Position numbers and translations under genes: made by a program. A stretch of DNA of 64,000 nt from Clytia hemisphaerica. Its lineage: Eukaryota > Cnidaria > Hydrozoa > Leptothecata > Clytiidae. This document shows, in pieces, positions 2,592-36,100 of the stretch. Each line of letters opens with the position of its first letter. The stretch's first letter is position 1. The stretch covers positions 496,001 through 560,000 of the forward strand of contig CACVBU010000498.1 of assembly GCA_902728285.1 (NCBI GenBank), written 5' to 3'. Under the pieces are notes generated by a model. The model had not been told where the DNA came from and did not search any database. It saw only the letters and a list, made by a program, of their open reading frames with translations.

Positions 2592-5500
2592 ATGATGTGG
2601 AATACAATGTTCATCAGAAGGATTTTTCGTGTTTTGCAAGTTTTCATGTTCATATTTCTAATCGTTGTCAATGTGTCGTTTATTTTCCGTCGTTCTACAG
2701 AATCAGGTATGATCCACTTTCTAATATTGCAATATCACCCTTAATCATCCATACAAAATACTGTTTCTGTACCTGGACGGCCGACGGAGACATGCCACTG
2801 GAGTTTGACAAATTGACTCTGTCAAACATTTAGATATGAAATTGCCACATTCGACCAACCCGAGAAACTGTTAAATTCAAGGAATGAACTGATCTCGAAA
2901 TGTCGGCATGTGAATAAGCTCACCCTCAAACTCCACGACACCAAAGACTGAAATAACGTCAATTACTTTGACGAAGACTTTACAGTGCACAGTATATTTT
3001 TGTAAACTTGAAACGAATTTTTTGTATAGAATTTTTGACTGAAGATCGTGACGAAAAGTTGCGTGAAACTTTGAGTATCAAACAATTCTTATCTCAACTT
3101 CAATTTATTGTGTAGATATGAATCAAAAATGTTTCCCATTTTCTCCCTCTCAATTTATTCTCCTATGTCAGATCCACATCTTGAAAATAAGTAAGTTTAA
3201 TATCATGTCAGATATCTTCACATCCCTGCATCTGCATGGCAATATAACTAAACCATTAGTTAGCTCAGGCCGTAAGACTGTGCAACGGCGATGCAAAAAA
3301 GAATCTCACTCTAGCCAATATGCAAAACAGATTTCTAATGTCAAAAAAAAAGATGTTTAACGCAATTCAGCTTTAGATTCGAGCCCAAATCCTTTCTCGT
3401 ATAAATTATAATCCATGTGAGTCTTTCATGAATGTTTTGTGGATTGCTTAGCATAATGATAGATATCTCTAGGCGGGTTTTCTCACTAATGACTTTTTTT
3501 ATCAACATTTGATCTCACTTCACATAATTTCACTTAATTTAAGACATTAAATTGGCATCAGCAGAGTCTTTGATGAACGTACGGGTCAGCAATCGGTCTT
3601 CGAATCTGATGGTCAATGGGGATGTCATGAAGATATCCAAAGATTGGATGAAAAATGCAGATGTCGTCAAAAATCTTACAAACCCAGGTCTGGCTCACTA
3701 TAATTACTACTATATTTCAAAATTATCATGAAATGTCATTGAAAACAACTCTCTGTCACAGACCCACTGGGAATCCAGCCCTACTGGAAAATTTAACAAG
3801 AATTTCGTCCCCGGTGGGAAAATACCCTAGAATTTCAGCCCCACTGGGAAATTTCTGACTTCCCTATTCGAAATTCAGTATTTAAAAATTGCACTTCAAA
3901 ATCACCTCCACTAAATTTTTTAACCTCGGAACAATAGAATTTCTATACCCATTGGAATTTTGATAGGAATTTTGATCCCCGATGAGAAAAAAGTTCCACC
4001 GGGGCTTTTAGACAGAAATCTTTGAAATAATTTAGTGTGAAACCGTTCAAGTAACGAAGTCAACTTTTCAAAAAGTAACTTTACAGTGGTTGTTTTCCTG
4101 GCTATTATATAAACCTATCATCTTCTTGTGTTTCTCTGCACAATTAAGAGTGCTCAATACATAAGTAGAGCTTGTTACATAAAGATTTAAGAAACGGTGT
4201 ATTTCTTTTCAATACTTAAAGTTTCTTGCTTTCGCATTCATCAGTTGATTAGAAATAACTATCAAAACAAAATTCCACGTTTATTTAAAAAATTCAATAC
4301 AGCATCTTCATATAAAAAAATTGACGTCAATCTTTAGAATCGATGTTTTCAAGTAGGTGTTTGTTTATGTGCCGGCATTTTGAGATAAGTTCAGATCTAG
4401 AGTTCAGTAAATTGTCTTTGCGCAAAGATATTTCAAATTTTTCATTCAAACAAAGGTCACATTTCAGGCTGCTTCTGTTGAACGGTTTGCACTTTCTTAC
4501 AATTCGCCATGTAACTTTAGGGTTGGTCTGGTTACGAGAATGCCGCCAAAATTCGTTCGAGAGCTCGGTTTCATTTTCGTATTTGGCGTGGTTGAACGAT
4601 TTCTTGTGGTTCGCACATCGCTTTTGGAAGATTGTTTCTGCGAGACCGATGTAAATTTTTGGTGGTAAATTCTCGTCGTCTGTTGTCAGTGTGGCTTCGT
4701 AAACAGTGTTTTTAGCTAAGCAGTTACCGTTCATGGGGCATTGATTTTTGACGATGCAGTTGCATGTTTTGGTTGGTTGTACGATGTTTTGCTTTTTGAG
4801 TACTGCTTTGTTATGCCCATCGATGATGGCTTTCATGTTGGTCGTGCAGCTATAGCTAACTTTGACTGTATTCCGATTGAACAGCTTGTGGTATTTATGA
4901 TGACGAGGAAAGTGTTTGTCGATCAACTTCAAGAACTTTTGTGCGATATTTGTTTCGACCGATTTGCTGAAGGGAGGGTTAAACCATCATTTTGTAACCT
5001 TCTAATATGAATTTCTTTTCTTTTCAAAAGGTTTTGCTGGAATACACGACATTGAGAAGTATTTCAAGTCAAACAATTTGAAACTTGGTCAGAAACGAGT
5101 AGGGAAAGGTAAAATTATCTCCATACAAATATTTCTCCAGCCACTTCAATCTTTCCCAAAAGCCAAATTTCAATACAGGCAGCCTATCAGGGAAATGCAC
5201 GGTCGAATTCTTATGTATCCTATGAGTTTTCATCTTTCAGCTTTCGTTGTTTTTGGGATTCCAACCGTCAAGAGAAGTAAAGCTTATTACGTCATCCAAA
5301 CGGTATCCTCCTTGCTCAAACACATGAAAACTTCAGAAAGGAAAAATGTTGTCATCGTCATTTTTGTGGCAGATCTTGACGATAGTTTTCTTAGGAAAGT
5401 CGTAAAAGATGTCCGAGATAACTTTCCAGTCGAAGTTAAAGACGGTATCATTCAAGTGGTCGCTCCTGATAAAGCTTATTATCCTAAGAATCTGGATAAT

Positions 5501-6409
5501 TTGCCAAGACTGTTTGGCGATGAACAATATCGAGTCCGCTGGAGATCGAAGCAGTGCCTCGATTATTCATATTTGTATTATTACTGTAAAGATATGGCAC
5601 AATATTTTGTTCAACTTGAAGATGATATAATTGCTGTTGATGATTATATGGGGAAAATGCGGGAATTTATAACGAAAAACGAGAAACTTCGTTGGTCGGT
5701 CCTTGAGTTCGGTGCCCGAGGATTTATCGGAATGACTTATCGGGGTGAACATTTAGAATCGTTTGCAAAATTTGTCAGATATTTCCATTGGACCATGCCA
5801 GTTGATTTACTTTTTCGAGTTTATAATGATATCTACTTGTATAAAAATCCAAAGAATTTTCGCATAAAGAAACCTGTTTTCTTGCATGTCGGTAAATTCT
5901 CATCCTTGGATGGTCAAGTGAGAAAACTCGAGGATTTACAGGATATCCCGATAGTTGGTCGACGACAATTCCAATCGGTAAAAGGAAATCCCGTTGCAGA
6001 AATAGAATCAGATTTATCGGGATTCTATAAAAGCAATAAGTTAGAGAACCCATACTCGAGCAAAGGTGTAATGTGGGCAACAAAACCTAAGGATGGTGAC
6101 ACACTGACGATAATGTTTAATTCTCCACAGAAAATCAAGAGGATCTTTATCTCTAGCGGAATGGATGGACATAAAAAAGACTGCTTCCACGAAACTAAAC
6201 TATACATCTCTCAAATGAAAGGTAACGCGAATTCGAAATGTGGGAAGTTTGAGCTGGTGAAATTTTACAAAGAAGCAATAGTTGATATTACTTTTGATGA
6301 ACCTAAAAAAAATGTTCGGTGTGTCAAACTGGAGTTGACAGCTGTCCAGAAAACGAAAGGAATTCCAAACTGGTTGATTATTGAAGAAATTGCTATTCTT
6401 GTTAGTTGA
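2592..6409 (+). CDS. MGAT4: MGAT4-like GnT-IV, copy 2, four exons
   Basis: The exons are 2592-2706, 3544-3687, 5031-5108 and 5241-6409, joined by phase-1 GT..AG introns; the product is 501 residues (human MGAT4A is about 535). Exon 1 encodes a short basic stretch and a hydrophobic signal-anchor (VFMFIFLIVVNVSFIF, about residues 17-32) followed by RR, typical of a type II Golgi enzyme. Exons 2 and 3 form the stem. Exon 4 holds the catalytic domain (FGIPTVKRSKAYY, VRWRSKQCLDY, EDD at 5618-5626, FLHVGKFSSLDGQ) and the C-terminal lectin-like domain. The start is the first of two consecutive ATGs; either would keep the anchor. Intron 2 carries an antisense Penelope-like fragment. The 5' part of exon 4 and the 3' flank resemble copy 1, and the middle resembles copy 3, as expected after gene conversion. 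Confidence 0.93.
2707..3543 (+). other. Intron 1 of MGAT4-like copy 2
   Basis: The donor GTATGA is at 2707 and the acceptor ..TTTAAG precedes 3544. Small ORFs here (for example around 3118-3360) show no similarity I recognise. I see no repeat with clear boundaries. Confidence 0.7.
3688..4180 (+). other. Intron 2 of copy 2, part before the retroelement
   Basis: It contains a run of phrases built on 'ccactggga', 'ccggtggga' and 'ccccgatgag' (3760-4005), a degenerate repeat also hinted at in 9190-9270 and 9770-10170. No gene is seen. Confidence 0.4.
4180..5003 (-). mobile_element. Penelope-like retroelement fragment (GIY-YIG region)
   Basis: The minus-strand frame from about 4993 to 4327 encodes the C-terminal part of a Penelope-like element: NPPFSKSVETNI, FPRHHKYHKLFNRN, the GIY-YIG nuclease core KIYIGLAET followed by RCANHKKSFNH, then PKVTWRIVRKCKPFN and a Cys-containing end CRHINKHLLENIDSKD, with a stop at 4327-4329. 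A TGA just upstream of WFNPPF and the absence of any reverse transcriptase show a 5' truncation. The 3' tail (to about 4180) includes GAATGCGAAAGCAAGAAAC, typical of such 3' UTRs. It lies antisense in intron 2 of MGAT4 copy 2, ending within about 30 bp of the exon 3 acceptor. Confidence 0.88.
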
Positions 6410-10746: not shown

Positions 10747-11296
10747 CTTTCAACTACCGTGAAAAGCACAGGCCAAAATCATATATTGACGCTGTGCGGA
10801 CGAATCAAGATTCTATTCATCGCGCAATCAACGAAGACAAAAGTAACCATGATGACCATCCAAGATCTTGGATGAGGTTCAAAGTTAGTGTTTTTATTCC
10901 CGTCGTTGAAAATACAACAAAAAATATCATCAATACTTTGTAAAAAGAGTCAGTGATAGAGAATCATAACATAAAGTCTGTCTATTATTTCGATTCAATT
11001 AAAAGTGACATTTCCATAATTAATAGTTTAGTAATTACTGTTATACATTTGGGGATCATGTAAAAGATTTCTTTCGAAAGAAACTCACTCTGATTACACT
11101 TGGAGGTTTCTGGGGAATTCGTAAATAGTAAACTGCATACTGATACAGTCTGCTAGACATTAATAAGGTAATATTTGCTCTTCATCTTTGATTCTTTCTA
11201 CAGTGATTAGATTGACACATGCGCGATAAAATTTCTATTATTGGTCTTCAGAGGTTAATATATTCTTTGAAAACTTAACCTCTGATACTCAGGGTA
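10747..11296 (+). repeat. Dispersed repeat D, copy 1
   Basis: About 550 bp matching 19048-19592 in the opposite orientation at high identity (from ccgtgaaaagcacagg through catccaagatcttggatgag to aacctctgatactcaggg). A short ORF at 10692-10943 spans the junction between MITE E and this repeat and is not a recognised protein. Confidence 0.85.
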
Positions 11297-14221: not shown

Positions 14222-17200
14222 ATGTGGAATGCAATATTCATCAGAAAGATTTTTCATGCTTTAGAAGTTTTCATGTTCATTTTTCTAATCGTTGTTAATG
14301 TGTCATTTATTTTTCGTCGCTCTGCGGAATCAGGTATGTCAGCAGCTCTCTGACACGTTTTCTTTATGTCATATTCAGTACACATTGTTGCTTTACCCCA
14401 CCCCCAAGCGATATACCTCAAATGTTGCCCTTATTATTCGAATTGATCTTAGGTCAAACATAATAGAAGACTGATCCAACCAATGAAGTATAAGCCCAAA
14501 TGGCTAGAATCGAATCTCCTTGGTAGGATTTTAAGCCAACAAATCCTACCAAAGTTGCGCGGCCTAGCACGATCCGCCTAGTTTTAAAAAAAATGACTCA
14601 AACTAAGATTTACCGCTAAATTTCGAAAAGAATATCACTCAAAAACAAAAAAATTACTAGATTCAATCATCGTCAAAAATATGGTGCATATTTTAAGGCT
14701 TCACTTTTTCTTGCCTGAGAAAGGTTATAGATTCGATTCTAGCCCTTCGGGCTTATACTTTATTGGATCCAACACTTTTTCAGCTACGGTTTGAACAAAA
14801 ACTATAAGGGCATATATAATTCAATTGATATCATAGACGTAAAAATATGGACGTAACCTCTTGATTTGTCCAACATAGGTTTACCCACTACCTAGTACCC
14901 ATGCCTCATCTCCTTTTTAGATTGATCAGGAGATTTGCCCTGAAAGCCTCTGTATTTTTTTTAGACCAGAGCTGAATTTCATCATATAAAATCCAAATAA
15001 AAAGGTCAATGATGTTCGCCTTTGGATAAAGGGTGTTTCATAACACCCATTTCCCTAGAAAATCTTTTTACACCACAACCAAAGCGCATCTACAAACACA
15101 TGGTAGCCACTCTCTAAAGCATATTTATATTTAGGCGACCGTAGTGCAGTGGGAGAGCATCCAGCTATGGTTCGCAAGGTTGTGGGTTCAACCCCCAGCC
15201 AGCTCGTACCTCGTACCAAAGATTTCCAAGATGGTACTTGATGCCTCTCTGCTTGATGCTTAGCAATTAAGAGAAGGATCAAGGTAAGTGGAGCTATCCA
15301 GGGAGAAAAAGTGGCGCCCTCCCGTACCTTCCGTACCTTCGGGTAGATAACTATCGAAAGAGGAGTCTTCTGGTCGCCTCCGACTGCGGTCGCAGACTTA
15401 CTGACTTACTAATGCATATTCTTTCGCTTTGTAGACGATAAAATACCGTCATCCTTTCCATCAGAGTCCTTTCAAAACACTAGCTCTGCAGTGTCACACG
15501 TATGGATTGATAAACAATCTTCGAACCCGGTGGCTGATGGGGATTTTATGAAGATCTCCAAAGATTGGATGAAAAGTAAACAAGTCGTCAAAAGTCTCAA
15601 AAAGCCGGGTATGTTGTACTGTATTACAGGTCTGGAAAATTCATTTATGTTTGCTTTTACAGCAGAAAAAATTCCTTGAAAATATCAGGTGGTGGGTCTA
15701 CAATCAATGAAAATTTAAAGTCTTAAAATAGAGGCCTAAAATTTTTACATCAATTTCTAATGATAACTTTTATTGAGTAGTTGACCATGTGATCTTATTA
15801 AACTATCTCTTGTCGGAGACGTACGGGAGTGGTCAACACCAAGAAACCAACAAATTTTTCTTGAACCACTATCAACATTACACAGACAAAATCCTCATTT
15901 GGTCACTGAACGGTACTTTTGAAACCGAAATACCGATAGAAAAAGAGCGTACGCCCCCTAATTAGTTGACGATGGTTCAACTATTTATAGGTTCCGAATT
16001 GAATCAAAATAAACAATTTTCATTTTTTTTAAGGTTTTGCTGGAATAAATGACATGGAGAAATATTTCAAGTCAAACAATTTGAAACTTGGTCAGAAACG
16101 AACAGGGAAAGGTACGGAGCTCATTCTTAGTTTGTTAATATCCCTAAAGTACATTCACTGTGCCGTATCCCATCTAACGAGTCCCGTCTCAATCTCGGAG
16201 CCCTCTTAAGCTAGAAATCATTCTTTTCACCAAAACTAGTAAGGCCTAAAAGTCTGGAGCTATTTATTGTGTAGACTAGCCGAATACAAGCATTTGCGAA
16301 TGTGAGAAAGTTGCATATGCAAGAAATTTCCTTCATTTATTTTGCTCTTTCAGCTTTCGTTGTTTTTGGGATTCCAACCGTCAAGAGAAGCAAAGCTTAT
16401 TATGTCATCCAAACGGTATCCTCTTTGCTCAAACACATGAACATTTTAGAAAAGAAAAATGTTGTCATCGTCATTTTTGTGGCAGATCTTGACGAAGGTT
16501 TTCTTAGGAAAGTCGTAAAAGATGTTCGAGAGAACTTTCCAGGCGAAGTTAAAAACGGTATTATTCAAGTAGTCGCTCCTGATAAAGCCTACTATCCTAA
16601 GAATCTGGATAATTTGCCAAGACTGTTTGGCGATAAACAAGATCGAGTCCGCTGGAGATCGAAGCAATGTCTCGATTATTCATACTTATATTATTACTGT
16701 AAAGATATGGCGCAATATTTTGTTCAGCTTGAAGATGACGTTATCGCTGTGGACGATTTTATGCAGAAAATGCGACAATTCATAACGAAAAACGAGAAAC
16801 TTCGTTGGTCAGTTCTTGAGCTTGGTGCCCGAGGATTTATCGGAATGACTTATCGGGGAGAGCATTTAGAATCGTTGGCAAAATTTGTCAGATATTTCTT
16901 CTGGACCATGCCGGTTGATTTACTTTTTCGAGTTTATAATGATATCTACTTGTATGAAAATCCAAAGAACTTTCGCATAAAGAAACCTGTTTTCTTGCAT
17001 GTCGGTAAATTCTCTTCCTTGAATGGTCAAGTGAGAAAACTCGAGGATTTGAAGGATATCCCGATAGTTGGTCGACGACAATTCCAATCGGTAAAAGGAA
17101 ATCCCGTTGCCGAAATAGAATCGGATTTATCGGGATTCTATAAAAGCAATGTGTTAGAGAACCCATACTCGAGCAAAGGTGTAATGTGGGCAACAAAACC

Positions 17201-17522
17201 TAAGGATGGTGACACACTGACGATAATGTTTAATTCTCCACAGAAAATCAAGAGCATCTTTATCTCTAGCGGAATGGATGGACATGAAAAAGACAGCTTC
17301 TATGAAACTAAATTATACATCTCTCAAATGAGAGGTAAAGCGAATTCGAAATGTGGGAAGTTTGAGCTGGTGAAATTTTACAAAGAAGCAATAATTGATA
17401 TTACTTTTGATGAACCTAAAGAAAACGTTCGGTGTGTCAAACTGGAGTTGACAACTGTCCAGAAAACGAAAGGAATTTCAAACTGGTTGATTATTGAAGA
17501 AATTGCTATTCTTGATAGTTGA
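14222..17522 (+). CDS. MGAT4: MGAT4-like GnT-IV, copy 3, four exons
   Basis: The exons are 14222-14333, 15435-15608, 16034-16111 and 16354-17522, all phase 1; the product is 510 residues. The N-terminus (MWNAIFIRKIFHALE then a roughly 16-residue hydrophobic run and FRR) is a type II signal-anchor very like copy 2. Exon 2 encodes a variable stem with Ser/Thr; exon 3 (GFAGINDMEKYFKSNN) is almost the same in copy 2. The catalytic motif EDD is at residues 248-250 (16731-16739). The loop that in vertebrate MGAT4A/B contains CNPEKDAKHC is shorter here and has no cysteines, so this is a divergent lineage of the family (comparison from memory). Intron 1 contains a hAT-like MITE and a tRNA-SINE. The gene converges on the MEGF8-like gene, whose stop lies about 420 bp away. 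Confidence 0.93.
14481..14765. mobile_element. hAT-like MITE, copy 2, 8-bp target duplication
   Basis: A 285-bp copy with ends caatgaagtataagccc and gggcttatactttattg, flanked by GATCCAAC (14473-14480 and 14766-14773). It shares ctttctcaggcaag-type and ggtaggatttt-type interior blocks with copy 1, partly in inverted order. It sits in intron 1 of MGAT4 copy 3. Confidence 0.88.
15134..15410 (+). mobile_element. tRNA-derived SINE, family 1
   Basis: The head ggcgaccgtagtgcagtggg carries an A-box-like tagtgcagtgg, and gtgggttcaacccccagcc carries a B box (GGTTCRANYCC). A tRNA-unrelated body follows, containing ggatcaaggtaagtggag and 'ggtcgcctccgactgc.gtcg'. A related copy lies at 59371-59590. It is in intron 1 of MGAT4 copy 3. 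The cloverleaf is not maintained, so it is not a tRNA gene. Confidence 0.8.
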
Positions 17523-17940
17523 TGAAATACCTTCGAAATGAAGTTGACTCGCTAGAGATTAAATGGAAATGTTGGGAGATAACGCCCTGGTAAAAACCAA
17601 TATTTCCTACATATTTTTAAATATAACCGTTTTTAAATGTTATGTGAGTTCATTTTCATTCTGTTTACAAAGATTTTATACGCGAAGATTTTATATTATT
17701 TATTAAAAGTTTCCGAAAATGGTAATGTGGTAAATATAAATATGTCCAAAATTTAAAAGTTTTGTTTATGAATAAGAGTAATATCGTTTGCTTAATCAAT
17801 CATCAAGTTGAATTCACAAGCTTTTTAACATTGGATTGACACGGATGTGGAGCAAGATGGTCAGAAAGAGGGAAAAGAAAAATGGTAAGAAAAATTTTAA
17901 TGGTCTAATATCTGTATTATAAAGCGCCAGAAAAAATAAA
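17523..17940. repeat. Convergent intergenic spacer with repeat C, copy 1
   Basis: This spacer separates the stop of MGAT4 copy 3 (+) from that of the MEGF8-like gene (-). 17744-17900 matches 32890-33095 (inverted) and 58195-58365, with shared 'ttgtttatgaataa', 'tcgtttgctta', 'acacggatgtggagcaag' and 'gtcagaaagag'. A minus-strand AATAAA at 17699-17704 could be the poly(A) signal of the MEGF8-like gene. Confidence 0.65.
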
Positions 17941-20900
17941 TCATGCTATATTGTGCCCGTAATTAATATGTTCTAGATCGTACTCTTCTGTCGTGGTTCG
18001 TTTAATAGGTTCAATTCTTTTCGAATCTTTAGTCTCACTTTTCAAAAGGAAAATCCCAGTACCAAAAGTGATATCACATTTCGAGTTTTGATAACCTGGT
18101 AGTTGAACCAGTACTGAAAAAAATGCAACATCATCATCAAATGCTGTTTGTTGTACCGCTACCGGTAATACTCTTAAGTCTCTTCTCTCGTGCTGAAAAC
18201 TCAACGGTGGTGCATCAAATATGTATTGAAGCATAGGTCTATTTTCAAGCTCCTTTAGATGTGTATTATTCAGCTCGTTGTTCAGGTTATTCATATACTC
18301 GCTCCTTAATCGGAACACTAAAGTTAGCTCAACAACCAGCGTTAAAGCGCTCATTAGGAGGCCAACAAAGAGTAGCTTCATGTCTAGGGCCAACATTCCC
18401 TGGTCATAATACAATGTTGTTTTTGCTATGGGTCTTGAATCGTCGCTCTTCTTAATCACTACGTAAAACTGAACTCTCCGCAAATGTTTATCTTTTGGGT
18501 CTATAGTAATTATGGCGCGGTGTTGCATATTCTTCATAGCTAAAACTCCTTTCTGGTATCTCTTAAAAGTGATTAGTTGGTTACCGAGAAGTATCGCCGA
18601 TATATCTTCATCAGCTGTATACTCGGGAGTCGGCTTTTCATTGTCGTTGTAAAACAGGTTTTGTGTACCATTTTCATTTAACGTTGCTCTGAAAACATGT
18701 TCGTTATCGGTGAGATAAATATCAACAGCGCCTTCTGGGACATCAATATTGAGTCGTATCCCTTGATCTTGATCGTAGCTTAAAACGTACGATTTTATAT
18801 TTCCCGGATGAAGATTGTCTTTGTAGAGGAAATTCTCATTGGTCTTTTTGTAGCATTGTTTACCGTTTGTAGGGGACCCGATGTAACCGTTACGACAATA
18901 CGAACACTGTAAAGAAATTGATGCTTAAACAAGTTAGAAATTAGTGGCAAGGTAAGAATCTTTTTTTTTTGCCTTATTGGGATCTAGTGATAAAATCAAG
19001 AAGTTCATTGAGAATAGAGGTAAGAATTTTCAGATTGCTATGCTTAGTACCCTGAGTATCAGAGGTTAAGTTTTAAAAGAATATATTAACCTCTGAAGAC
19101 CAATAATAGAAACTTTATCGCGCATGTGTCAATTTAATCACTGTAGAAAGAATCAAAGATGAAGAGCAAATATTACCTTATTAATGTCTAGCAGACTGTA
19201 TCAGTATGCAGTTTACTATTTACGAATTCCCCAGAAACCTCCAAGTGTAATTGAAATGAGTTTCTTTCAAAAGAAATCTTTATACATGATCCCCAAATGT
19301 ATAACACTAATTACTAAACTTTTAATTATGGAAAAGCCACTTTGATTGAATCGAAATAATAGACAGACTTTATGTTATGATTCTCTATCACTGACTCTTT
19401 TTAAAAAGCATTGATGATATTTTTTAGTTGTGTTTTCAACGACGGGAATAAAAATATCAACTTTGAACCTCATCCAAGATCTTGGATGGTCGTCATGGTT
19501 AACTCTTGTCTTCGTTGATTGCGCGCTGAATAGAATCTCGATTCGTCGGCACAGCGTCAATATGTGATTTCGACCTGTGCTTTTCACGGTATATGCTTAG
19601 AGCTATAAGTTTCAACTATTTTTTACAGCTCGAAAAGACTCGTTAGTATTAGCTAAAATCTTTTTCAGTCTTTTTCTTAATAAGAATGTGAGTTTAGTGT
19701 ATTTATCAACGATTTTGAGGCGAATTTTTATTGTGTAACTGGGCTGGGGTCTACTGGGTCTGTACTAGATGGATAGGCTACTCCGTCCTTGGCTAAAGCT
19801 AAATAATGCATTAAAAGTAAATCAGGTTTTGTTGCTGGAAATTGATGAATCAAGACTATTCTCTCCCCTTCTCACTTCGAGCCATAGTAGTAGTGGTTTG
19901 TTTTGATTAACAGATTCCCGGCGCCGACTGGGGTCTGTTTTTTGTAAATATGACGCAATATTTTACTTTAAATGCCTTGGATTGGGAAGGATGGAGTAGC
20001 CCTATCTAATAAATGTTTTGTATAAGATAATTTGTATTACCTAGTCATTTTATTAAAACGAATTGAAAAATTTCGTCTTAATAAAAACCCCCTTAATTAA
20101 AACCAGCCATTGTTTCCTTGAAAAAGCAGATTTCAAGGCCGTTGAATACTTGCCTAGTAATACGTGTGTTATAAGGTATATAAAGCTGAGTTACTAACCT
20201 GCAGTAGAAGACAAGTTCGATGGTCGAGGCATTGATAAGTGCCTTTAGTCAGTGTGTTATGAAGACAACGACAACCTTGACCAGTTCCTTGGTCACACTG
20301 AGTCGCATGCTCGTTACAGCTACACCTAAGACGAACATTTTTTACGGTTATCTGAAAAACCTAATCGTCCTCGTGTATCTCACCAAGACTGCAAAACTGC
20401 AAGTAGTATATATAAGGAGCACGAATCCGTTAGTGGATACCAGCAGCCTAACCAAGGCTTTATTACTTTTACTGATTGGCACTGTTTTATCTGGCTCGTA
20501 CGGTAAAACATCACGAAGCTGGAGGCTTCCGATAGAAAGTGCACAAGATTTGGAGGAAAATATAATTTTCATGAGCAGATATCCTCTGTTTATGAACTTA
20601 CAAAAACAGTAAAAATTGAGGGCTGAATCTCTATGAAGAAGCATTGTGGTGTTATATCTAATCATCGGAACGCACAAAACTTACTTTTTATGAAAAATAC
20701 GCAAATATCGGAAAATATTATACAGTAGAGTCCCATAAACACCCAACGCAAACTTGTTCGAGTTTTGGACATTTCGAGTTATGGAGACTAGTTTATAAGG
20801 CATTGTTTATTGAAGGGACCAACAAACTTGTTCGAGTTAAGGAGACATTTGAGTAATAGATGTTTGAGTTATGAAGATTTCACTGTACGCCCTTAAGTTT

Positions 20901-23229
20901 CAGCTACAATTACTAACCTTTTACAACCTTTGTCTTTTGTTCTATAGTAACCTTTACCACAAGAAAGTTGACAGCGATGACCGTATCTTCCATCTTTGCA
21001 GTACAAACAGCTCGCTTCATTGGGAATGGAAGGATTCAAGGCCATAGCATCTGAGAGCTATGGTAAGGAAAAAAAGAGGGTAATTCGTATACATGTAGAG
21101 TATCCAAACATAATATCGCATACTCTCGCATACTTTGTATACTTTCCGAGACAAAGAGATTTTAAGCAGCAACTAACTGGACTTTTGACATTATTTGAAT
21201 TCCTGATAAGATTTCATAAGCGGTCCATCTCTTATGTTTAATTGAAGCTCATAACCAAAGCTCATTCGTTTTGATTGTGGACTTTTTGCATTACCATGTA
21301 GAGAAAATATCAGCATGAGAGTAGTTTCTAAATTAGTGGGCATTTATTGCGAATGAATTCAAGCACCAAGTGACTTATTGTGAGGTGGCATATGTAAAAA
21401 CTTTTTCAATGAATGATTTTCCACAAATTTTCCAGTGAGAGCAAAACATGGGTATCTAAAAATAATACACCTACCAATTTTATAACTTGATAGGGTCTCA
21501 GATTATCGTTTTCAATGATGCCTTTCCAAAAGTTGTAAGAATTTGAAGTGACACAGATGTTTGATTTTCCATGACAAAATTCTTGACATGAAATACATTG
21601 TTGGTTGTGTCGTGGACTTCCTATGTAACCAGGTTTGCATCGTTGACAATTTTCACCCTGAAGAAAGGTTGACAGGATTTGTGGTATTCGTTGACAGGAA
21701 AGGATATATAGCATAAACAAAGAGAATTATCGAAAATAGTTGCAATCGTTACGCTTTCGTACCTTTTCAACAAATATTGATATTCAAATTTTAGAAAATA
21801 GTCCCGACCCCAGTTGCCTCCAGTTTTGGGTAAGACACTCAATTCTACTAATGGAGACAGGCGGATAATATAATGTAAAGTCTGTTCACGATAAGTGTGC
21901 ACTCTTTTTTCTTTTACCTATAACTTTTGAAGGAATTCTTCAATCTTTGTAAATTTGGTATCGTTGGAAAGATATTTGCGAGTGGAACAATTTGAAATAA
22001 AAAAATCTTTGAAAAAATTCTAAAAACGAAGATGAGAAAATGAAGAAGAAAAAAATGAAGATCTTGTAGAAAAGTGCTATAACTTTCATTTTTACTGGAG
22101 AGATTCTTTGATCTTAGGAAGTTATCACTGTGAAGAAATTTCACTGAAATATTTATTCATTCAATATAAAGTTATGATACAAAGTTAATAAGTGATTGAC
22201 CCCAAAAAACAGCAGAAAACAGCTTAAACTAATGTTTTTGAGAAGTTTGATGACGTTCGATGATCAAGAATTCACTTCAGTGAAAATGATTGTTATAGCG
22301 CTTTTCTGCAAGATCTTCATTTTTTTTTTCATTTTTAGAACTTTTTTAAAGACTTTTTATTTCAAATTGTAGATATAGATATAGATATAGATATGCCCTC
22401 CGATGCATCAGAATGGGTCCTACCCACGGTGGAGTAGGAATCACAGCGCAAGCAGACATTGCAACCCTGCAGATGCGAGCTGCCGAGCCATGGTGTATAC
22501 CACGACAATCGAACTACACGGGAGAACGGATGTCCTCGCAGGTGTAGAACCTCCTGAGTGTCACGGCGCACCACAATGTCTGAAATATCTACCCATACTC
22601 TTGTATCAGAGTTATGGTACCCAATTCCCCTCACATGGCATGGGTTGACCCGGGCGAAGGAGCATTCACTTGCCAAGTGAATCGTAGTGCCACGGTGGGT
22701 ATCGAACTCGAGCCTCCTGGACAGAAGTCAAGCACGATAACCACTACACCACTACGCCTTCAAATTGTTCCACTCACAAATATCTTTCCAACGATACCAA
22801 ATTTACAAAGATTGAAGAATTCCTTCAAAAGTTATAGGTAAAAGAAAAAAGAGTGCACACTTATCGTGAACAGACTTTAGGTACAGAGAGGTGTCAAAAC
22901 AAATTGAAAGACTGTCTAAAAAGCTCCAGATTACTGGATAATCCTTTGTGAAACATCATTGAGATATTATTTACCTCAGAATGATTGACACATTTCAAAC
23001 ATTTACCAGAATCTTGGTCACAGGGAGACAAACCATTACACTGGCAAGGCTGCCCACACGTTTGCCCAAACCAGCCATAGTTGCATTCACATTTAGAATC
23101 ACCAATGCAAAATCCATTGAGTGAGTTACAAGTGATATTTCCACATTGTCTCTTGGCTTTCAGATGCCCACAAAGGATATTGAGGATCACCAGAGCTGTT
23201 AGTGACCAGCTGGTTTTCTTCTTTAACAT
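17941..23229 (-). CDS. Short MEGF8/attractin-like type I membrane protein, five exons
   Basis: Minus-strand exons are 22975-23229, 21475-21657, 20918-21057, 20199-20325 and 17941-18906; phases agree and the product is about 556 residues. It starts at ATG 23229 with a signal peptide (MLKKKTSWSLTALVILN). EGF/laminin-EGF modules follow (CECNYGWFGQTCGQPCQCNG, GENCQRCKPGYIGSP, CKDGRYGHRCQLSC, CSCNEHATQCD, CSYCRNGYIGSP), then a membrane-proximal domain (DVPEGAVDIYL, HRAIITIDPKD, VQFYVVI) and a TM helix at about 411-433. The cytoplasmic tail is about 120 residues with LENRPMLQYIFDAPP and SVLVQLPG, which match the conserved MEGF8/attractin tail. In vertebrates that tail recruits MGRN1-type E3 ligases that limit Smoothened or melanocortin receptors. 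CUB and kelch domains are absent, so this is far shorter than either relative. Function here is inferred. Confidence 0.88.
19048..19592 (-). repeat. Dispersed repeat D, copy 2
   Basis: Reverse-complement match to 10747-11296, without MITE E next to it. It lies in the last intron of the MEGF8-like gene. Confidence 0.85.
19763..20011. mobile_element. TA-flanked MITE (TAGAT.GGCTACTCC ends)
   Basis: The left end tactagatggataggctactccgtcc and right end ggatggagtagccctatctaata are inverted repeats of about 23 bp. The interior blocks 'aatgcattaaaagtaaa' / 'ttactttaaatgc' extend the symmetry. It ends on TA dinucleotides, as mariner-type insertions do. 249 bp, in the last intron of the MEGF8-like gene. 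Confidence 0.7.
20721..20887. mobile_element. MITE, TAACTCGA family, complete copy
   Basis: The ends TACAGTAGAGTCCCATAA and (reverse) TACAGTGAAATCTTCATAA are imperfect inverted repeats. The interior repeats ttcgagttaaggagac and 'ttcgagttatggagac'. It is bounded by TA. It lies just 30 bp downstream (minus sense) of the 20918 donor of the MEGF8-like gene. Confidence 0.7.
21876..22879. mobile_element. Foldback (long-TIR) element interrupted by a SINE
   Basis: 21876-22000 and 22757-22879 are near-perfect inverted repeats (taaagtctgttcacgataag ... and its complement). The symmetry continues inward, less perfectly, to about 22110 and 22290 (atgaagatcttg / caagatcttcat). Once the SINE at 22381-22758 is removed, each arm is about 240 bp around a central unique loop. 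It ends in TA..TA, compatible with a mariner-type MITE, with no transposase. It is in intron 1 of the MEGF8-like gene. Confidence 0.8.
22381..22758 (-). mobile_element. tRNA-derived SINE, family 2, with 10-bp TSD
   Basis: Perfect 10-bp direct repeats TTCAAATTGT flank it (22371-22380 and 22759-22768). On the minus strand the head reads ggcgtagtggtgtagtgg (A box) and then gctcgagttcgatacccacc (B box). A roughly 300-bp tRNA-unrelated body follows, ending in an (ATCTAT)n tail at 22381-22397. It inserted into one arm of the foldback element, so it is younger than that element. Confidence 0.9.
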
Positions 23230-25521: not shown

Positions 25522-27152
25522 TCATCTTACTTGTAAGCACAAGACGATGAGTTTTTGGTCGCAGCGAACATCTAACTCATTCAATGCAGGAGTGTAGGTA
25601 AGAATGGAAGATGCGGTGGCCTTATGGAAAGGTTGCTCAGAACGCCAGTTGCGGCAATTCATTTTCGTTGAGTGGAGTTTTCCGTTAGCGTGTGAACCGT
25701 GCCAAAATTTCTTCACCGGCCTAAAAAATAAGTTAAAATAGAAGTGTGATACAGTGGTGCATTTCGAATTCGTTGATTTTAATGATGTTCGTGTTTCTAT
25801 GATTTTTAAATTGTTTTCTTTTTTTGGAGCTTTCATTCATTAGAAACTATTTACTATATTTTTCACAAAAGAGAAACAGCATCAGAATCTTACCATGAAG
25901 GATCTTGGCGAACATCTTTTTGGTCGAAAGAATAGATTGGGATGTTTGGATTAAATGCAGTGTAATTATCACTCTTGTAGATATCTTCCGCGCGTGCGAA
26001 AATCTGCTCACCCTGTAAGATAATAAGTAAAAAGACTTCATAAATTTCCTTTTAAACTTCAAATAATTTGAATATCTCCCTGGTCTGAAAGTCGGTTTCC
26101 TAGCCAGGTAAATATTCAATTGAAATTGGAAGTTTAAAGCAAGAATGGACAACAATGAAAGAAAAAAACTAAAGTGCATAATAAGATCTCATCTGAAAGA
26201 GATTGACTGATTACAGAGAGCGAAAGTATTCTAAAGAAGAGTGTATATTACATATACAGGCAGGGATAACTTCAAATTAGCCTATCATCTCGGAATGTCA
26301 GCTAATTAGCCTAGAATAAGCAAATTAGCCCATTTCATATAGGCTAATTAGCTCATAATGAAGAAAAATTTGATTTTTGAGCCAAATACTAATAGTCGCA
26401 TTCTATAAATTCTCAGATTAATCTCTAATCACTCAATTAATGTATATTCCAAATATTATCCCTTAATCAGCTCCAGAATAGGAGATATTTAATTTTTTCT
26501 AACTGCGCATGCGCGGGCATGCGCAGTATAAAAACTTCGACATTTTTCGCGGAAAATATTATATTTTTTTTTGCACACGGTACTAAGATCAGAAAATTAG
26601 CCTATTATTAGTTATTTAGCCCATCAACTAGCTTTTTTAAAATACATCTTTTCTGGGAGCTGAACACAAAAGATTTTTAAGTGGAGAAGATTCTTTGAAA
26701 CATATAAGATTTGTTTTTAATGAAAAAAAGATGCGACTATTAGTATTTGGCTCAAAAATCAAATTTTTCTTCATTATGAGCTAATTAGCCTATATGAAAT
26801 AGGCTAATTTGCTTATTCTAGGCTAATTAGCTGATATTCCGAGATGATAGGCTAATTTGAAGTTATCCCTGCCTGATATAGTGCTTCCACATGATAATCA
26901 AGAAGATAATAAATCTATATGTGGAACTATTATCATTTATTCATTGGTACATACCCTGGTATTAGCGACTGGTTTTTTACGACTTCGGAATGGAATCATA
27001 TTTGCGATATCATTATAATTATCTGAGATCAAGGTGTGGAATTTCAATCCGAAATATCCAGCTGCTTTGGCTTGTGTTGAACACATTTTATCAATCTTTG
27101 CTAAACCTCCCATTCGTCCAGAATAAGGCTCGTTCAAAGCGATTAACATCAA
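25522..27152 (-). other. Endostatin domain exons
   Basis: Exons 26955-27152, 25894-26012 and 25522-25720 encode LMLIALNEPYSGRMGG to the stop after LIVLCLQVR. Cys residues in DKMC, KMNC, DVRC and IVLC fit the C1-C4 and C2-C3 disulfides of vertebrate endostatin. The domain is released from collagen XVIII by proteolysis in vertebrates; the hinge exons (27698-27811 and 27367-27432) are Thr/Lys-rich and probably protease-accessible here too (inference). Confidence 0.92.
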
Positions 27153-30100
27153 CTGAAAAGGGAAGATTTTTAAAGTAATTTTTAATTTAGATGCGTGGGT
27201 TTAACAGTGGTTGATGCAAGTGGAAAGATTGGAAATTTCTATCGAAAAGATAGTTCGAAAGGAAGGCAGGGTCAAACATCAATCAACGACAAGGACAATA
27301 CAAGCCGCCTGTAGTGATATGTTTTGATATTCAAAAAAAGAAATTTTTTTGCAAAAGTTAACTTACGTAAGGTCTTTTTGCCATTATCCCAGGCTGTGGA
27401 ACAATCAAGGTTTCTTTGATCAACTTCTTATCCTATGATGATACAAGACGAAAATTTACAATCCAGTGAAACTCTATAGTCCAATTGGAGAAACTTTATT
27501 CGAAATTTCTATGAATTTGGTCTACGATGCAATTTTTAGTTTAGGGCCTCCTTAGTATTTTATGTGGCAAAACTTTAATTAAAAAATCGATTTCTTTGAA
27601 TCATGTTTACAATTGATTGATTGATTTCTACTGTCGTGACTCAATACGAATAAAAGTAGCAAAAGAAATTGCCAAGGAAAGAAGAGCCACCACTTACAAC
27701 ATCAGTGGGTTCGGTGATTTGTTTCTTGGTCAATTCGATCACGGTTGGACCTGATGCAATCTCGTTGCTATCCGTGGTCAGTTTGCCAAGAAGACCTGAT
27801 TTCGATTCGGTCTATGGTGATAGAAATGGGATAAAATTACAAGTAAAGTTTTAAGTTTTACATTTACTTAAGGTTGAAAAAGATATTTGAGGGTTTAGAT
27901 CTCAAAAAATGCATGGCTTACATGGCTCACAGGTATTATGGAAATATTCAAGCTTGTATAAAGTGTATAAGAATCTAAAGGGCAGACTTGGGATAAAATA
28001 AATGAGATAAGTCTCACAAAAAACTGGTGAGAATGAATATATCTCAATCAAAACCAAAGAACTTACGGGGATGCTGATCCAACCTTTGAGAGATTTGATG
28101 AACAAATTATTTGTACTGATAACAAATGCAAGAGAACCAACGCCGAACATATCTTCCATTATATCCAAATCTTGATCCGTTAATATCACATTCGCCTACA
28201 GAAAACAACAATTTGTCATTGTAATTATATTAAAAAGAATAGGAGTTGGGAAAAACTTTGATAGTGCTTCTGAAATCAGCGTTTTAACGAATTTGGGTAT
28301 CGTTCTGTCTACCTAGATGCATCGATTAAGAGGATATATCCGACATCGCTTATCGGATAAAAAGCTCTAATAGCCATTTACAAATTATAACGACGTTATC
28401 GGGAGCAATTTTGAAAATAGTTTTCAATACAACGGGAAGCGAATATTTTATTTAGAAAGTATATTTTTGATGACATATTTCTACTTACTTTACTTCCTGT
28501 AGAAACTCCAGCTTCTCCTTTGGGTCCTCGCGGCCCTCAAACACCAGGAAGACCACGTGGCCCTTGATCACCTGGAGGTCCTTGATCGCCCTTCAATTTT
28601 CGAATTTCTGTGATAAATACAAAAACCTCAATTACAAGCTAGTAAGTTAATCTGTTCAGGAGGAAGGTAGTGGGAAGGGAAAACCTGCAGGCACGCAACG
28701 TTGTCTCAACATCCGTCTAACGTTATACGGAAAAACATTGAAATAACGTTGTGTGCTAGCTGGGAATCTGCACTCGCTAAAACTCTGAAGGTCGGGAAAT
28801 TTTCAATATGTGGAAGGTTTGGATTACGGAATTTTGCAAGACTGCGTCAGGGATTTTGCAGCGGGAGTCTTCGACCCCAGCCGATGTTTTCGGGGATTAA
28901 CGGGTCTAACCTAAATATTTTCAGCCTTACGCACAAGGGTGGCTGAACCTGACTGGGAATGCAGTACATCAAAGGCCGACTATCATTCCTCTCCGATGGG
29001 AAATTGGCCCGCTCCTTTTAGAGCTTTAGCGTGGGCGGCCGCCAATCCGCCAATCCACCATCGGAATTTATCAGAACCCCTCTAAGTATTGGAGAAAAAT
29101 AAACTTACGTCTTTCTGCCAAACCAATAACCTCTTGAGCAACTTCTGATATTTTCAGACTGTCCCCTTTTTCACCTTTTGGTCCAACTTCACCGATTCCT
29201 TGTTCACCCTAATCAGGAAATGGAGTTTGCTAATCAATAACGTGAAAAATGATGTTTGTTTTAAGACAATTATAGTGTTTTAGATAAGGCCCAAATTATT
29301 ATGTAGGCCTTAAATATTAATTGAAATCGCGTGTGAAATGGCTTCTTCTAGACAGCTGCATGCGTGGTATTAAGATTAGTGATTTTAAATTGCTTGAAAG
29401 CAAATCCTCCTTTGTCATAAACGAGTAAGATATATTTCTCTACCTTTTCTCCTCTAGCACCTCTTTCACCTTTTTCCCCTTGGATACCTTGTATTCCCTG
29501 AAGAAAATGAAGAAATATATATATATCCACATATTGAAGGAAAAACCCAACGATTCAGGTAGGTGGTAAGTATCTAAAGTAGCCTGCATCGACCAAAACA
29601 CCCATGGGCGATTTTAACTTTTTGAGAAATACTTTCTTGAACTTCTAAAGTGATAATGTTGCCGGACCTTCACTTGGGCGAGAGTTAACCTCACTAAGTT
29701 GGCTATAGTGGTTATAACCCAAACCAAAGGCTCTATTCGCGAACTCTTGATAAAAATGATAATAGACAAACTAAACAGAGATTCTATATAACTTACCTGT
29801 TCTCCTTGAGGTCCTTGTTTTCCTTCCTCGCCTTTCAATCCCATAATGCCTTGCTCTCCCTTGGCTCCTTTCAATGTTCCAACAAATTCCATCGCATCTT
29901 CCTCAAATTGTAGCTAAATGAAATATAAATGTTTCGAAAATCAAATCGTTTCTATAAAATATTCTTTTGAGAGGGTTGATTAATTTATTTTTTGCAAATG
30001 CAGCTTTTCCCATAAATCTTTCCCAAAATGGCCTACCCTGGTAAACAACCAATAGCTTGGCTGATTTGATAAAAAGTACACATGGGACTTAGTCAATATC

Positions 30101-33100
30101 TTAAACTCAAAATAACGATTTAAAATAAAATTGAACAGTAAAATCTTTTGAACTTACAAACTTGCTGTTGATAAGCTGAAAAATAAAAGACCCAATAGTT
30201 AAAAACTGGTTAAACAAAAAATGATTACGAAAATTTCAACCAAAGGAAAATGAGAACATTTGCTGAGCAAAACCTAAAGCATTGATGAGCTGTTGCTCAG
30301 TGGTTTGAATCATTTTCTTAGATTTAAATAACATACTTAAAGACATTTCTTTTGATATGGAAAGGTGGCTTGCCTTTATGCTGGCAAAGCAGAAAAAACA
30401 AAAGGATTTCTCAAAATTGTTCGAGCGGCGCTGAGAGGGAAGAAATTTTTTCTTATACTTTTGTTTGAAAATACTGAGTAAGCAAATGTAAGGAAATACG
30501 TCAATACACCTTTTCGACTGTAGTCGCGCGGTCAGGCGCGTGCTACTTTATTATTTGATTTATCACCCTAAACTCGATCCAATCCTTTTTTTTACACTTT
30601 TTTCTATTGTCTTTAGGTGCAAAAAAAGACTGGGACGGTTTTAGGGTGGTAAAACGGAAAAAAATGCCCGCGCGGCAATTAGCAGCTACGGTCGAAAAGG
30701 TGTATTGATGAAAATAAGTTCTTATTCTACGGTAAACACATTATTCTCACCTTTTCAGGGACAACTCCAGTTTCACCTTTCGGACCTCGAGGACCAGGCA
30801 ATCCAATCTTACCACGTGACCCCTTGTTTCCAGTCTCTCCTTTCAAAGTGTGCAATTCTTTAAAAAAAAGAAAATTGAGAGTTTCATTCTGAGGACCAAG
30901 GGCAATGCACATGACAACAGAACGAGAAAAAAATAGACTGTTGCCTTTTAGGTGAATTCGTGCTGAACTATTTAAACCTTTTCAACTTGATTTATTTTTT
31001 TACTTTGATTCAATAGACCTTATCGGAGTTTTTGATTTTTCTAAAAAAGCGATGCATTGTGGGATTGTTTCGAGTGTATTACAATAGAAATCTCTTAGGA
31101 ATTCCTCGAGGGAATTCTATTGTAATACACTCGAAACAATCCCACAATGCATCGCTTTTTTAGAAAAATCAAAAACTCCGATAAGGTCTATTGCCAAGGA
31201 ATGAGATTAGGTAAATGCAGTGAATTAACTTATATTACAGGTGGAATTTCTTGTGAAAAGGACTCACTTTCTTCGGTATCTCGAACAACTTCATTGACAA
31301 CGTCCGACAACTGAAATAAAGATATAATATTTTTGATTCGAAAAAAATAATCGTGGATTTGTACAATTGTTGAATCTTTAGGAATCTTGAGGAGAGGCCA
31401 GGTGGTTTGTGTCTAAAATATCGGTTTGATCAAGCCATCCGATAAACCGTGGTCCAGACCGAACTACGCAATAACAATTCAACTTGACATGAAAGTTTTT
31501 ATTGGTATTGCACTTACATTAATACCCTTGCCTTTTTCACCTTTCAGTCCAACTCCCATTTCACCCTGTAAGGTAAAAAGAAACGAGTCAGGCTAGACTC
31601 TCTAATTGGTGGGTATCAGAATGAAAGTGGGACTATCATTGATTTTGATTTAAAATAGAGCTACACAGCAAATTATAAGACATAAATATTGTTATTTAAT
31701 CCGAGGGTGTTATCAGATAGCTTTCGCTTAAGTTGAATGAGTGGTATTACCTTTGCTCCTTTGACACCATCAAAACCTTGCTTTCCTCGTACTCCTGGTA
31801 TGCCCTGTAACGTGGTAAGAAATAAATGTTTTGATGGAAGGAAAAATGAAAAATGTTGTGTAAGTAATAGAAGCCCAATGTCTTCAGAGTACGAAGTGAC
31901 GATTCTACGATGAAAGTAAAACATTATATCTTTTACGTTTATAACTTGCATTTACTGATCCAATATGCCATTTCACGGTCCTAATGAATCATGGTTAATC
32001 AGGACTGATCGCGAAGTCAAAACGGCTTCCCGTTGGTAAATGCGACAACTTCCAAAACTTTAAACTAACAAAAATTCGTTATCAGAGCACGGTAGTCCTG
32101 ATTACCCATAATTCCTTTCGACCGTGATATGACCTATGAAAATATGAGAAAAAACTTTCCTTGAATAAATCGTTTCTTACCAAATCTCCTTTTTCACCAC
32201 GTTTCAATTTGATTTCATTTAACATTTTCTCGGTGTCTCTTTCAAAGCGAGTCTGTGGAAAAGAAATGTATGTTTTTAGACAGCAACAGGATCTCTCAAA
32301 GAAATATTGCAAAGGTTAAACAACGATTTTATGTGGGCAATACAGTACTGCAGCTGAAAAAATCTTATCTTATCGCTAGGTATATTAATATCAAATATGT
32401 AGAAATTAATTTGAAAAATCTTACCATTTTTTCGTTGATAATCTAAAAAAAAAAAATCAAAAATATTTTTAATTCAATTTTATTAAGTTTGCATTTAGGT
32501 CGAATAGTAAACCTAAATGTCCCATTCGGTAGATCTAGTCTCCAATCCCGGACCCATTTCACGTGACAGCAAATCTAATTAGCTAATAAAAAACAGTTTT
32601 CGACAACATTCAATAAAATGGGTAAAGTTTGGTGGTCCAAAAATCAAGATGATGGAATTTCAATTGGTTTACAAACTTACCTTCTGGGCAATTAATTCAA
32701 AGTCTTGATTGGTAGATTCTTTTTCTTTGGTGCAATTACATTCCTCTTTCTTCGCCTCCATCTAAAGAAAAAAGTATTGATAAATGGTGATAAATGAAAA
32801 GTGGGAATGTATTGTCATCGTTTCCAAACAATCAATCGTATTCTCGGGTGCTTAAAGGTTTTGTTTTACATAAGTGTTTCCGTTTCATATCAGACACATA
32901 TTTCATATTAGGACAGTGTCTTGCTATTGTTATATTATGCTGATATAAGCAAATAACTGTTTTTCCTTTCCTCTTTCTGACCAATCTTGCGCCACAATCG
33001 TGTCAATCCAATGTGAAAAAGCTTGCGAATTAAAATTGATGAGTAAGCAAACGATATCACTCTTATATTTAAAAACAAAACCTTTAAATTCCAGTTGCCA

Positions 33101-36100
33101 ATTGTAATAACAATAGCAGGCTGTAGCAAGCAAAAAGTAGCCACAAGAGTTAGCAGTCAAATCTTTGCTTGAAAAAGATTGAAAGGAGTCATTGCATCGA
33201 CGTCAAAAGAACTCAATGTATTGACATTTTTCTGCCAACTTTAATTCACAATTATAGACTAGGCAAGGGCAAAAAGTTGGCCGTGCAAACCACAGAAAAG
33301 TTTTTTTTCAGTTTCATACTAGGAGAAATAAGACGCCCATCTTAAGTGGTAGTGGATCCTAATGGCTTGAATAGATTAATCATTTTAAAAGTGTTTGAAA
33401 CCATCAGTATTTTGGTATCTTCCTCAAGATCTTTATCAACCATACTCATAAAACTTTCCCATGGTAAGGACGGTATTGTGTCTTTGATGAGTTTTTTAAC
33501 GGCCAAAAATGTTAGTCTGAAGACCTCTGAAAAACATTACCACGATCTTTGTTATATTGTGAACTGAGTTGAGTTTACTTTTTTGTTCGTTATCATAACC
33601 CTTATATATTCTAATATCTGTAAGAACAGAAACTTTTTTGGTTAGCAGATCAGCAAAAACATTAGCTACCTTTTCAATAACACGGTCAACGATCTCGTCC
33701 AGCGAGTCACCAAACCGTCTGTCATTCGTTCCAGTCTCGGTTCCATTCCCCTGATTCACATCAGTTGTATTTACACTACTCCTTGTCGTCGTCAAATTAT
33801 TTTTCACTTTCAGCATAATCAGTGTATTATCAATTTCCTTAATTTCGTCTAATAGTTCTAAGCGTGCTTGCTCTAATTTAAAAATTTCTTTGGCTGCCAT
33901 TTGCTCTTCAACGGAAGTTGGGGCAGATGGTTTTGGTGAAGGGAGATCATTTGTTTTATCTCCTAGTTCATTTAAAGCCGACTTAATCCTCTCTAGCTCT
34001 TTCTTGATTTCGTTGCGTAAGTCTTTAACAGTCGCAGGTGTACTGGAAATAAAAGGCTCGTCAGTAGATTTAGGATATAAAGTAAGAACTTTGGAGAAAT
34101 CAGGGTCAGCTGTGTATGGGGTGGGTGTTGGCATTTCAAAAGTTGAAGTTCTTCGTTTTGTACTTTCGATCGTGTCTCGTGTAGTGTATTCTGTTGTTAC
34201 AAAAGTCTCTGTTGTAGGCTGGGTCGTTGATGTAGTAAGCATAATGGTCGTTGTTGTGGGGGTGGTTGTTGTTGTAGTTTGTGTGATTGTTGTTGTGGTA
34301 GGGGTGGTCGTTGTTGTTGTAGTAGGGGTAGTCGTAGTAGGGGTAGTCGTTGTTGTACTAGGGGTGGTCGTTGTCGTGGTAGGGTTGGTAGTTGTTGTTG
34401 TAGTAGGGGTAGTCGTTGTTGTGGTAGGGGTGGTCGTTGTTGTAGTAGGGGTGGTCGTTGTCGTGGTAGGGTTGGTAGTTGTTGTTGTAGTAGGGGTGGT
34501 CGTCGTCGTTGTAGGAGTGGTCGTTGTTGTAGTAGGAGTGGTCGTTGTTGTAGTAGAGGTGGTCGTTGTTGCAGTAGTAGGAGTGGTCGTTGTCGTGGTA
34601 GGGGTGGTCGTTGTCGTAGTGGGAGTGGTCGTTGTCGTAGTAGGGGTGGTCGTTGTTGTAGTAGTAGGAATGGTCGTTGTCGTGGTAGGGGTGGTCATTG
34701 TCGTAGTGGGAGTGGTCGTTGTCGTAGTAGGGGTGGTCGTTGTTGTAGTTGTGGTAGTCGGAAGAGAAGTGGTCGTTGTGTTAAATTGTCCCCTTTCCTC
34801 TTTAGCAACCTTAAGACAAAAAATAGACGATTGCAAGGATGAAAACAAAAACTTCACAGCTGGATAATCGTCAAGGGAAATGTTTCAAAAGGTAGACAAG
34901 CCTTGCACAATGAAAAGCATAAATACCTCAGTTTTTCGGGAATCCACGTGACATTTGGGAATAGCATCACGGTAATCTTTGAACATGGTCAGATCATAAA
35001 TTGCACCCTGAAGCAAAAGGAAATATGAATAGCGAATGATAGTAGCAGAATGTTCTGAACAAAAGGAAATATGAATAGCGAATGATAGTAGTAGAATGTT
35101 CTGATAGTCACCAACCCTATAGTAAAACCGAGGAAAGACGAAAGATAGTTTGTGCTCAAAATCGATGTTTCCAGTCCAGTCTTCAGCTAAAAAATACTAA
35201 AATACTCGAATCTTTCTTTAATTCGAAGGAAATTCTTGGTCACTTGAAGATCGAATTAGAGAGAGAGTCAACAGTCAGTAACTTGATGTACAAAACTGTT
35301 TGTCCAATACAGAAGGACGATAGTATCCACGTTAAGGGATTCATCCAACATTGATTCTAGGGGAGGTAGGCTCGAATTGAGAGTGAAGTTGAGTTATTTG
35401 TCACGAGTTATAATATCATCGGTTATTCTTCCCAGCTGGCACACAGCGTTGTTTCAACGTTCAACTAACGTTATATGGACGTTGTGAACGTTAGATGAAC
35501 ATTGAAAAGACGTTGTGTGCCAGCTGGGTTGGAGACAGGACTCACATAGAGAGCAGGTTTCTTTATATACCATCCAGCATTGCCAAGAAAGATGGGTGAA
35601 TTGGAACGTACATCTAAAGCTTTTCTTTCATGTTTGAAAACTTTCCTCAAAACGCGATCACATCCTAAAAGTAAAGAGGAATATGATGGCTTGAATCTTG
35701 GTTTCACTTCAATCATTATCATTTCAATCTCCAAGAAATGAAAGTCGAAGTCAAAGATGGAAAAACACAAAAGTAGAAAGTCTACGATGCTCTAAAATCT
35801 CAAAAGATTTTTCTTCACTTTAAATAGACTGCCAAATAAAAAGTTTTAAGGTTTCTTGTTAGCATGAAAAGCATGAAATTATACCGGAGAAGTAAAGGGT
35901 GACTTCTTGGTCTACCACAGTTATACTGAAAACATTCCAACGTCGATCCATTCGTGGTACTAAGAAGCTTGCTACCAAGTTCCGTTCTTCTTCTGTTCCA
36001 CTCTTACTCCGGTAAATAAATTCGATCTTATGTTTATTGTTTGACGCTTGTAGAACGTTCAGAGCAAGGATACTTTTCGAATGATCGTACTCTAAGACAC

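Follow-up and report, generated by a model that had tools for sequence, protein, structure and literature searches.

A candidate MEGF8 paralog without most of the ectodomain in Clytia hemisphaerica

A gene of five exons was identified on the minus strand at positions 23229-17941 of the analysed stretch of DNA (64,000 nt, referred to as the window). Its product of 556 amino acids can tentatively be read as a type I membrane protein encoded by a complete stand-alone gene and, judged by sequence likeness, as a derived, partial MEGF8 paralog. MEGF8 is a surface protein which aids cells in the removal of signal receptors. The gene seems to code for the membrane side of such a protein, namely the last EGF-type modules, the Stem domain, the transmembrane helix and the cytoplasmic tail.

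Gene model and protein layout

The coding sequence of 1671 nt starts with the ATG at 23229 and ends with the last base of the stop codon at 17941. All four introns are bounded by GT and AG with the phases 0/0/2/0, and the spliced frame of 556 codons contains no internal stop. The complete five-exon gene with matching phases, which had been proposed in the initial annotation, was confirmed exactly to the base. A possible polyadenylation signal (AATAAA) is located on the same strand at 17699..17704, about 240 nt past the stop codon and ahead of a convergent MGAT4-type ORF, whose end is at 17522.

Exon 1 (22975..23229, minus strand like all exons and domains below), delimited by its open reading frame and a GT donor in phase 0, encodes a probable signal peptide, an EGF-like module and the start of the first laminin-type EGF module. 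The putative signal peptide comprises residues 1-25 (23229-23155) and consists of three lysines followed by a hydrophobic core. By a simple hydrophobicity rule, the signal peptide of the initial annotation is likely but not certain: 6 of the 293 ATGs in the window with 40 open codons, its own ATG included, are at least as signal-like, so that the assignment is suggestive and short of proof. The EGF-like module (residues 26-61) gave weak Pfam matches to EGF_2 and EGF_Teneurin below the cut-off.

Exons 2, 3 and 4 were placed by their splice sites and phases. Exon 2 (21475..21657) completes the first laminin/attractin EGF module, which extends to residue 106 and matches the Pfam family EGF_LMN_ATRN at residues 62-106, and begins a Cys-rich middle module. 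The second part of this module, to residue 192, is encoded by exon 3 (20918..21057). According to the cysteine positions the two parts are separated by about 40 Cys-free residues, and the middle piece has no Pfam match. The larger part of the last laminin-type EGF module lies in exon 4 (20199..20325, residues 193-235), as is also seen from the phmmer alignment described below. For the whole protein, EGF_LMN_ATRN (6.4e-11) and EGF_laminin (8.8e-07) were found with three stretches each, in agreement with the laminin-EGF modules annotated before.

Exon 5 (17941..18906) is an open frame of 966 nt, encoding the end of the last EGF module, the Stem, the transmembrane helix, a cytoplasmic helix, the tail and the stop codon; with this base composition, 321 codons would stay open by chance with a probability of about 1e-10. 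The predicted Stem (M-Stem-like) domain has a length of 157 residues (256-412, 18376..18846), contains no cysteine and lacks a Pfam match. In a single-sequence AlphaFold2 model it forms ten beta strands. It is followed by the predicted transmembrane helix at about residues 413-433 (18313..18375) with a hydropathy of 2.3, the single peak in the protein. The membrane-proximal domain and the one transmembrane helix of the initial annotation are therefore both recovered, the former as a beta-rich juxtamembrane domain.

The cytoplasmic part consists of 123 residues. Its first segment (residues 434-454, 18250..18312) seems to extend the transmembrane helix, as the AlphaFold2 model contains a continuous helix at residues 405-456, ending at the motif LENRPML, with a pLDDT of about 90 over residues 418-447. 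Two models were computed with no alignment, one of exon 5 (mean pLDDT 49.0) and the one described here, of residues 258-463 (pLDDT 68.5). The motif LENRPML (residues 455-461, 18229..18249) is aligned by phmmer where MEGF8 has MASRPFA, and the motif VLVQLPG (residues 500-506, 18094..18114) where MEGF8 has LLLQLPG. A Foldseek search against the PDB with both low-confidence models returned no match at an E-value of 0.001 or better; with the limit raised to 10, there were 1722 matches for one model and 1952 for the other. No MEGF8 chain was present among the best 50 of the 1722 or the best 50 of the 1952, and the search was treated as uninformative.

Relationship to MEGF8 and attractin

In a phmmer search against PDB chains, three distinct MEGF8 sequences rank first with E-values of 3.7e-11 to 1.1e-10, followed by laminin with 2.3e-05. 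The matched chains are C-terminal pieces of MEGF8, and the match is collinear from the last EGF module via the Stem and the transmembrane helix to the tail. The alignment to 9qs6_B begins in exon 4, where the MEGF8 chains in the PDB start. The matched molecule is labelled isoform 2 of MEGF8 with no species given, and we take it to be human. The chain 9qs6_B contains a helix rich in Glu, Lys and Arg, which may be engineered, and 9qqs_B has other letters in the helix at equal chain length. Together with the EGF_LMN_ATRN modules, these top matches bear out the relationship to MEGF8 and attractin suggested earlier.

Most of the MEGF8 score comes from the EGF module and the early Stem, the only stretch which is significant alone. 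There, at the start of the Stem, IRLNIDVPEGAVDIYLT aligns to IRLTLDVTFGAVDLYVS of MEGF8. A query restricted to EGF, Stem and transmembrane helix matched MEGF8 in the PDB with an E-value of 1.4e-11. When Stem and tail were used without the EGF module, the best match was still MEGF8, but only with an E-value of 0.2, and the cytoplasmic part alone matched nothing up to an E-value of 10. The later stretches of the alignment to 9qs6_B reach 3.8 bits at the MASRPFA position and -3.4 bits at the LLLQLPG position, neither being significant alone. Since these stretches are weak and the tail-only search was empty, the assignment of the tail rests more on collinearity than on its own strength. In shuffle tests against the printed MEGF8 pieces, the observed score was reached by 0 of 5000 shuffles for the N-terminal part of the Stem, and by 1 of 5000 each for its C-terminal part and the QLPG tail block, where the preselection of the pieces by HMMER with the same query biases toward a match. 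Judged by these alignments, conservation is stronger where the MEGF8-type Stem begins than in the tail.

The tail had been attributed to the family by three motifs. VLVQLPG is located at the LLLQLPG site and beats 4,999 of the 5,000 shuffles, and ENRPM is located at the MASRPFA site, where LENRPML is identical in 2 of 7 positions, but nothing in the printed alignments corresponds to FDAPP.

The distance from the juxtamembrane LDM/IDL to the RP of the motif is 49 residues in the protein of the window and in the MEGF8 chain alike, with two compensating one-residue gaps placed inside by the HMMER alignment. According to the literature, the transmembrane helix positions the ligase MGRN1 (PMC13161197). 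In fly Distracted, deletion of MASRPFSQVLV reduces the co-precipitation of Mgrn1 to the level of the negative control, and fly Megf8 itself has only a partial MASRPF(A) motif (PMC8254101). The membrane-to-motif ruler is thus retained in the sequence, but it is doubtful that LENRPML serves as a docking motif. Since the MGRN1 motif is degenerate, recruitment of the ligase may be weak. The claim that the ligase-recruiting part is kept is unsupported in this form, as the Mgrn1-association motif described for Distracted (PMC8254101) is only partly kept in LENRPML.

Described for MEGF8 is an ectodomain of CUB, beta-propeller (kelch) and PSI domains and many EGF modules (PMC8513608). The gene in the window shares with MEGF8, in collinear order, the last laminin-type EGF module, the Stem, the transmembrane helix, a cytoplasmic helix of equal length and the QLPG tail. 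However, CUB, kelch propeller and PSI are unmatched in it, and its EGF modules are far fewer. In contrast to the aligned MEGF8 stretch with its several cysteines, the Stem of the gene in the window is Cys-free, and it comprises 157 residues compared to 184 in MEGF8, of which 32 form a disordered insert, leaving about 152 (PMC8513608). The term "C-terminal half" used in the initial annotation is too large, given 556 amino acids and a construct numbering of MEGF8 up to residue 2778 (PMC8513608). The gene was classed as a partial paralog and not as a MEGF8 ortholog, because the domains of the large ectodomain are unmatched in it and in the nine upstream ORFs searched.

Attractin, ATRNL1 and fly Distracted share with the gene the EGF_LMN_ATRN modules and the logic of transmembrane helix plus tail, but their CUB, kelch and C-type lectin domains are unmatched in it. 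Compared with a provisional attractin sequence, the Stem scores at the level of shuffled sequence (z -0.7, 2344 of 3000 shuffles reach the score), and for the attractin tail 27 of 3000 shuffles score as high. Attractin as the closest relative of the Stem was rejected on this shuffle-level score, which is a lead only, the attractin sequence being provisional. On sequence the gene seems to be nearer to MEGF8 than to attractin.

The layout is nearly the same, within the described boundaries, as that of the construct MEGF8deltaN-Stem (aa 2313-2778; PMC8513608), which likewise contains an EGF part, Stem, transmembrane helix and tail. By this analogy the gene is a natural counterpart of the construct in layout. 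The construct is man-made, whereas the gene is natural, probably starts with a signal peptide and has EGF and laminin-type modules of its own in front. Among the matches listed in the openly licensed literature (CC0, CC BY, CC BY-SA), as excerpted, no natural short MEGF8 or attractin was recognised.

Genomic surroundings

On the same strand, the nearest gene upstream carries an endostatin-type domain (4.6e-08) at its end, at 25522-25836; together with the likeness to MEGF8, this type of collagen indicates an animal source. It extends over 25522-36389 (minus strand) as a collagen-like gene, presumably of the XV/XVIII type, with Gly-X-Y stretches further up, a signal-peptide-like start near 36.4 kb by eye and a long Thr/Pro mucin-like ORF at 33496-34884 inside its span.

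Three single-ORF genes of the MGAT4 glycosyltransferase type are located on the plus strand at 3-1016, 5006-6406 and 16275-17522, the first being cut by the window edge. They contain the Pfam domains MGAT4_cons and MGAT4A_C, share 274/338, 270/338 and 361/406 identical residues in pairs and look like a local expansion. An ORF at 4330-4986 (minus strand) resembles by eye the end of a GIY-YIG/Penelope-type element, with no convincing Pfam match. The plus strand also carries a reverse transcriptase ORF at 52806-54371 (RVT_1 1.9e-35). Following its RT domain, a PHD-finger-like sequence is matched weakly (0.0016, short of the cut-off).

Intron 1 harbors an inverted-repeat element (21876-22879) with 121-nt arms, which are 99% complementary and 762 nt apart. 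By eye it includes a tRNA-like sequence; ARAGORN finds none there. A dispersed repeat in intron 4 (19048-19591) is present in inverted orientation at 10755-11296, with 94% identity over 545 aligned positions. Rfam and tRNA scans across the 64,000 nt of the window found nothing. Relatives of the gene were not found in viral contigs, and a pattern search of GTDB genome contigs gave 25 matches, none of them confirmed, as is expected for an animal gene.

Possible function and alternative readings

In MEGF8 the interaction with MOSMO was mapped to the Stem by truncations (PMC8513608), and the MEGF8 Stem binds MOSMO, which ATRN and ATRNL1 do not (PMC12752501). The most likely reading, put forward tentatively, is an adapter working like MEGF8 without most of the ectodomain, for which MGRN1 recruitment and MOSMO binding are suggested by the likeness to MEGF8. 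Such a paralog would have retained the stretch from the last EGF-type modules to the tail, including the Stem and a transmembrane helix that extends into the cytoplasm, and would be located at the cell surface. Its Stem would pair with a MOSMO-like tetraspan protein, the long transmembrane-cytoplasmic helix would hold an MGRN1-type RING ligase beneath the membrane, and the protein would help to remove a neighbouring receptor, e.g., Smoothened, independently of ligand input via CUB or kelch domains. The short form is more easily explained as derived than as ancestral, since MEGF8 is reported to be conserved across metazoans and choanoflagellates (PMC5792066); the ancestral origin considered earlier is thus unlikely.

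Second in rank, and rather unlikely, is a competitor of the full-length protein, a dominant-negative paralog whose Stem binds MOSMO or the substrate and whose LENRPML is uncoupled from MGRN1, so that full-length MEGF8 is blocked and receptor levels rise. The few identities in the MGRN1 motif (2 of 7 aligned positions), the loss of Dsd-Mgrn1 co-precipitation down to the negative control after deletion of MASRPFSQVLV (PMC8254101) and the better conservation of the MEGF8-type Stem start would fit such a blocker, but the retained QLPG tail block and exact membrane-to-motif spacing would be odd for it, and the motif is also partial in fly Megf8 (PMC8254101). A decaying, functionless partial duplicate could account for the strong divergence of the tail from MEGF8 and for the repeats seen upstream and in three of the introns (1, 3 and 4); however, five intact exons, four good introns, 556 codons free of stops and frameshifts and the kept Cys pattern of the EGF modules make it very improbable.

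It is also improbable, if less so than decay, that the gene is the 3′ end of a longer one with further exons upstream, its hydrophobic start being a chance or internal feature. A good splice acceptor at 23271, from which the frame is open into exon 1, would allow this, as would the signal-like stretches arising in AT-rich DNA (6 such starts among the 293 ATGs, counting that of the gene); but the acceptor could equally belong to a 5′-UTR intron, an upstream coding exon being its less likely partner. The interval from 25521 to exon 1 contains 23 ORFs with a length of 25 aa or more. Among the nine longest (at least 36 aa) no Pfam match to CUB, kelch, PSI or EGF was obtained, the best E-value being 0.0097 for a family without relation to these. 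A longer gene could still have exons in the remaining 14 ORFs or in introns of the collagen-like gene. Against it also stands the endostatin-type end of the next same-strand gene at 25522. CUB and kelch are likewise unmatched by Pfam in the gene itself, in line with their absence as annotated before.

Possibly, though with less than even odds, some animals have a distinct class of MEGF8 paralogs nearly devoid of the ectodomain, as natural counterparts of the Stem construct, which would either set the strength of receptor degradation independently of an extracellular ligand or compete with full-length MEGF8 for MOSMO. With a natural protein largely restricted to the membrane side, the role of the very large MEGF8 ectodomain, including ligand sensing, could be tested by comparison, and such a protein would show whether the unit of Stem, transmembrane helix and tail suffices in an animal.
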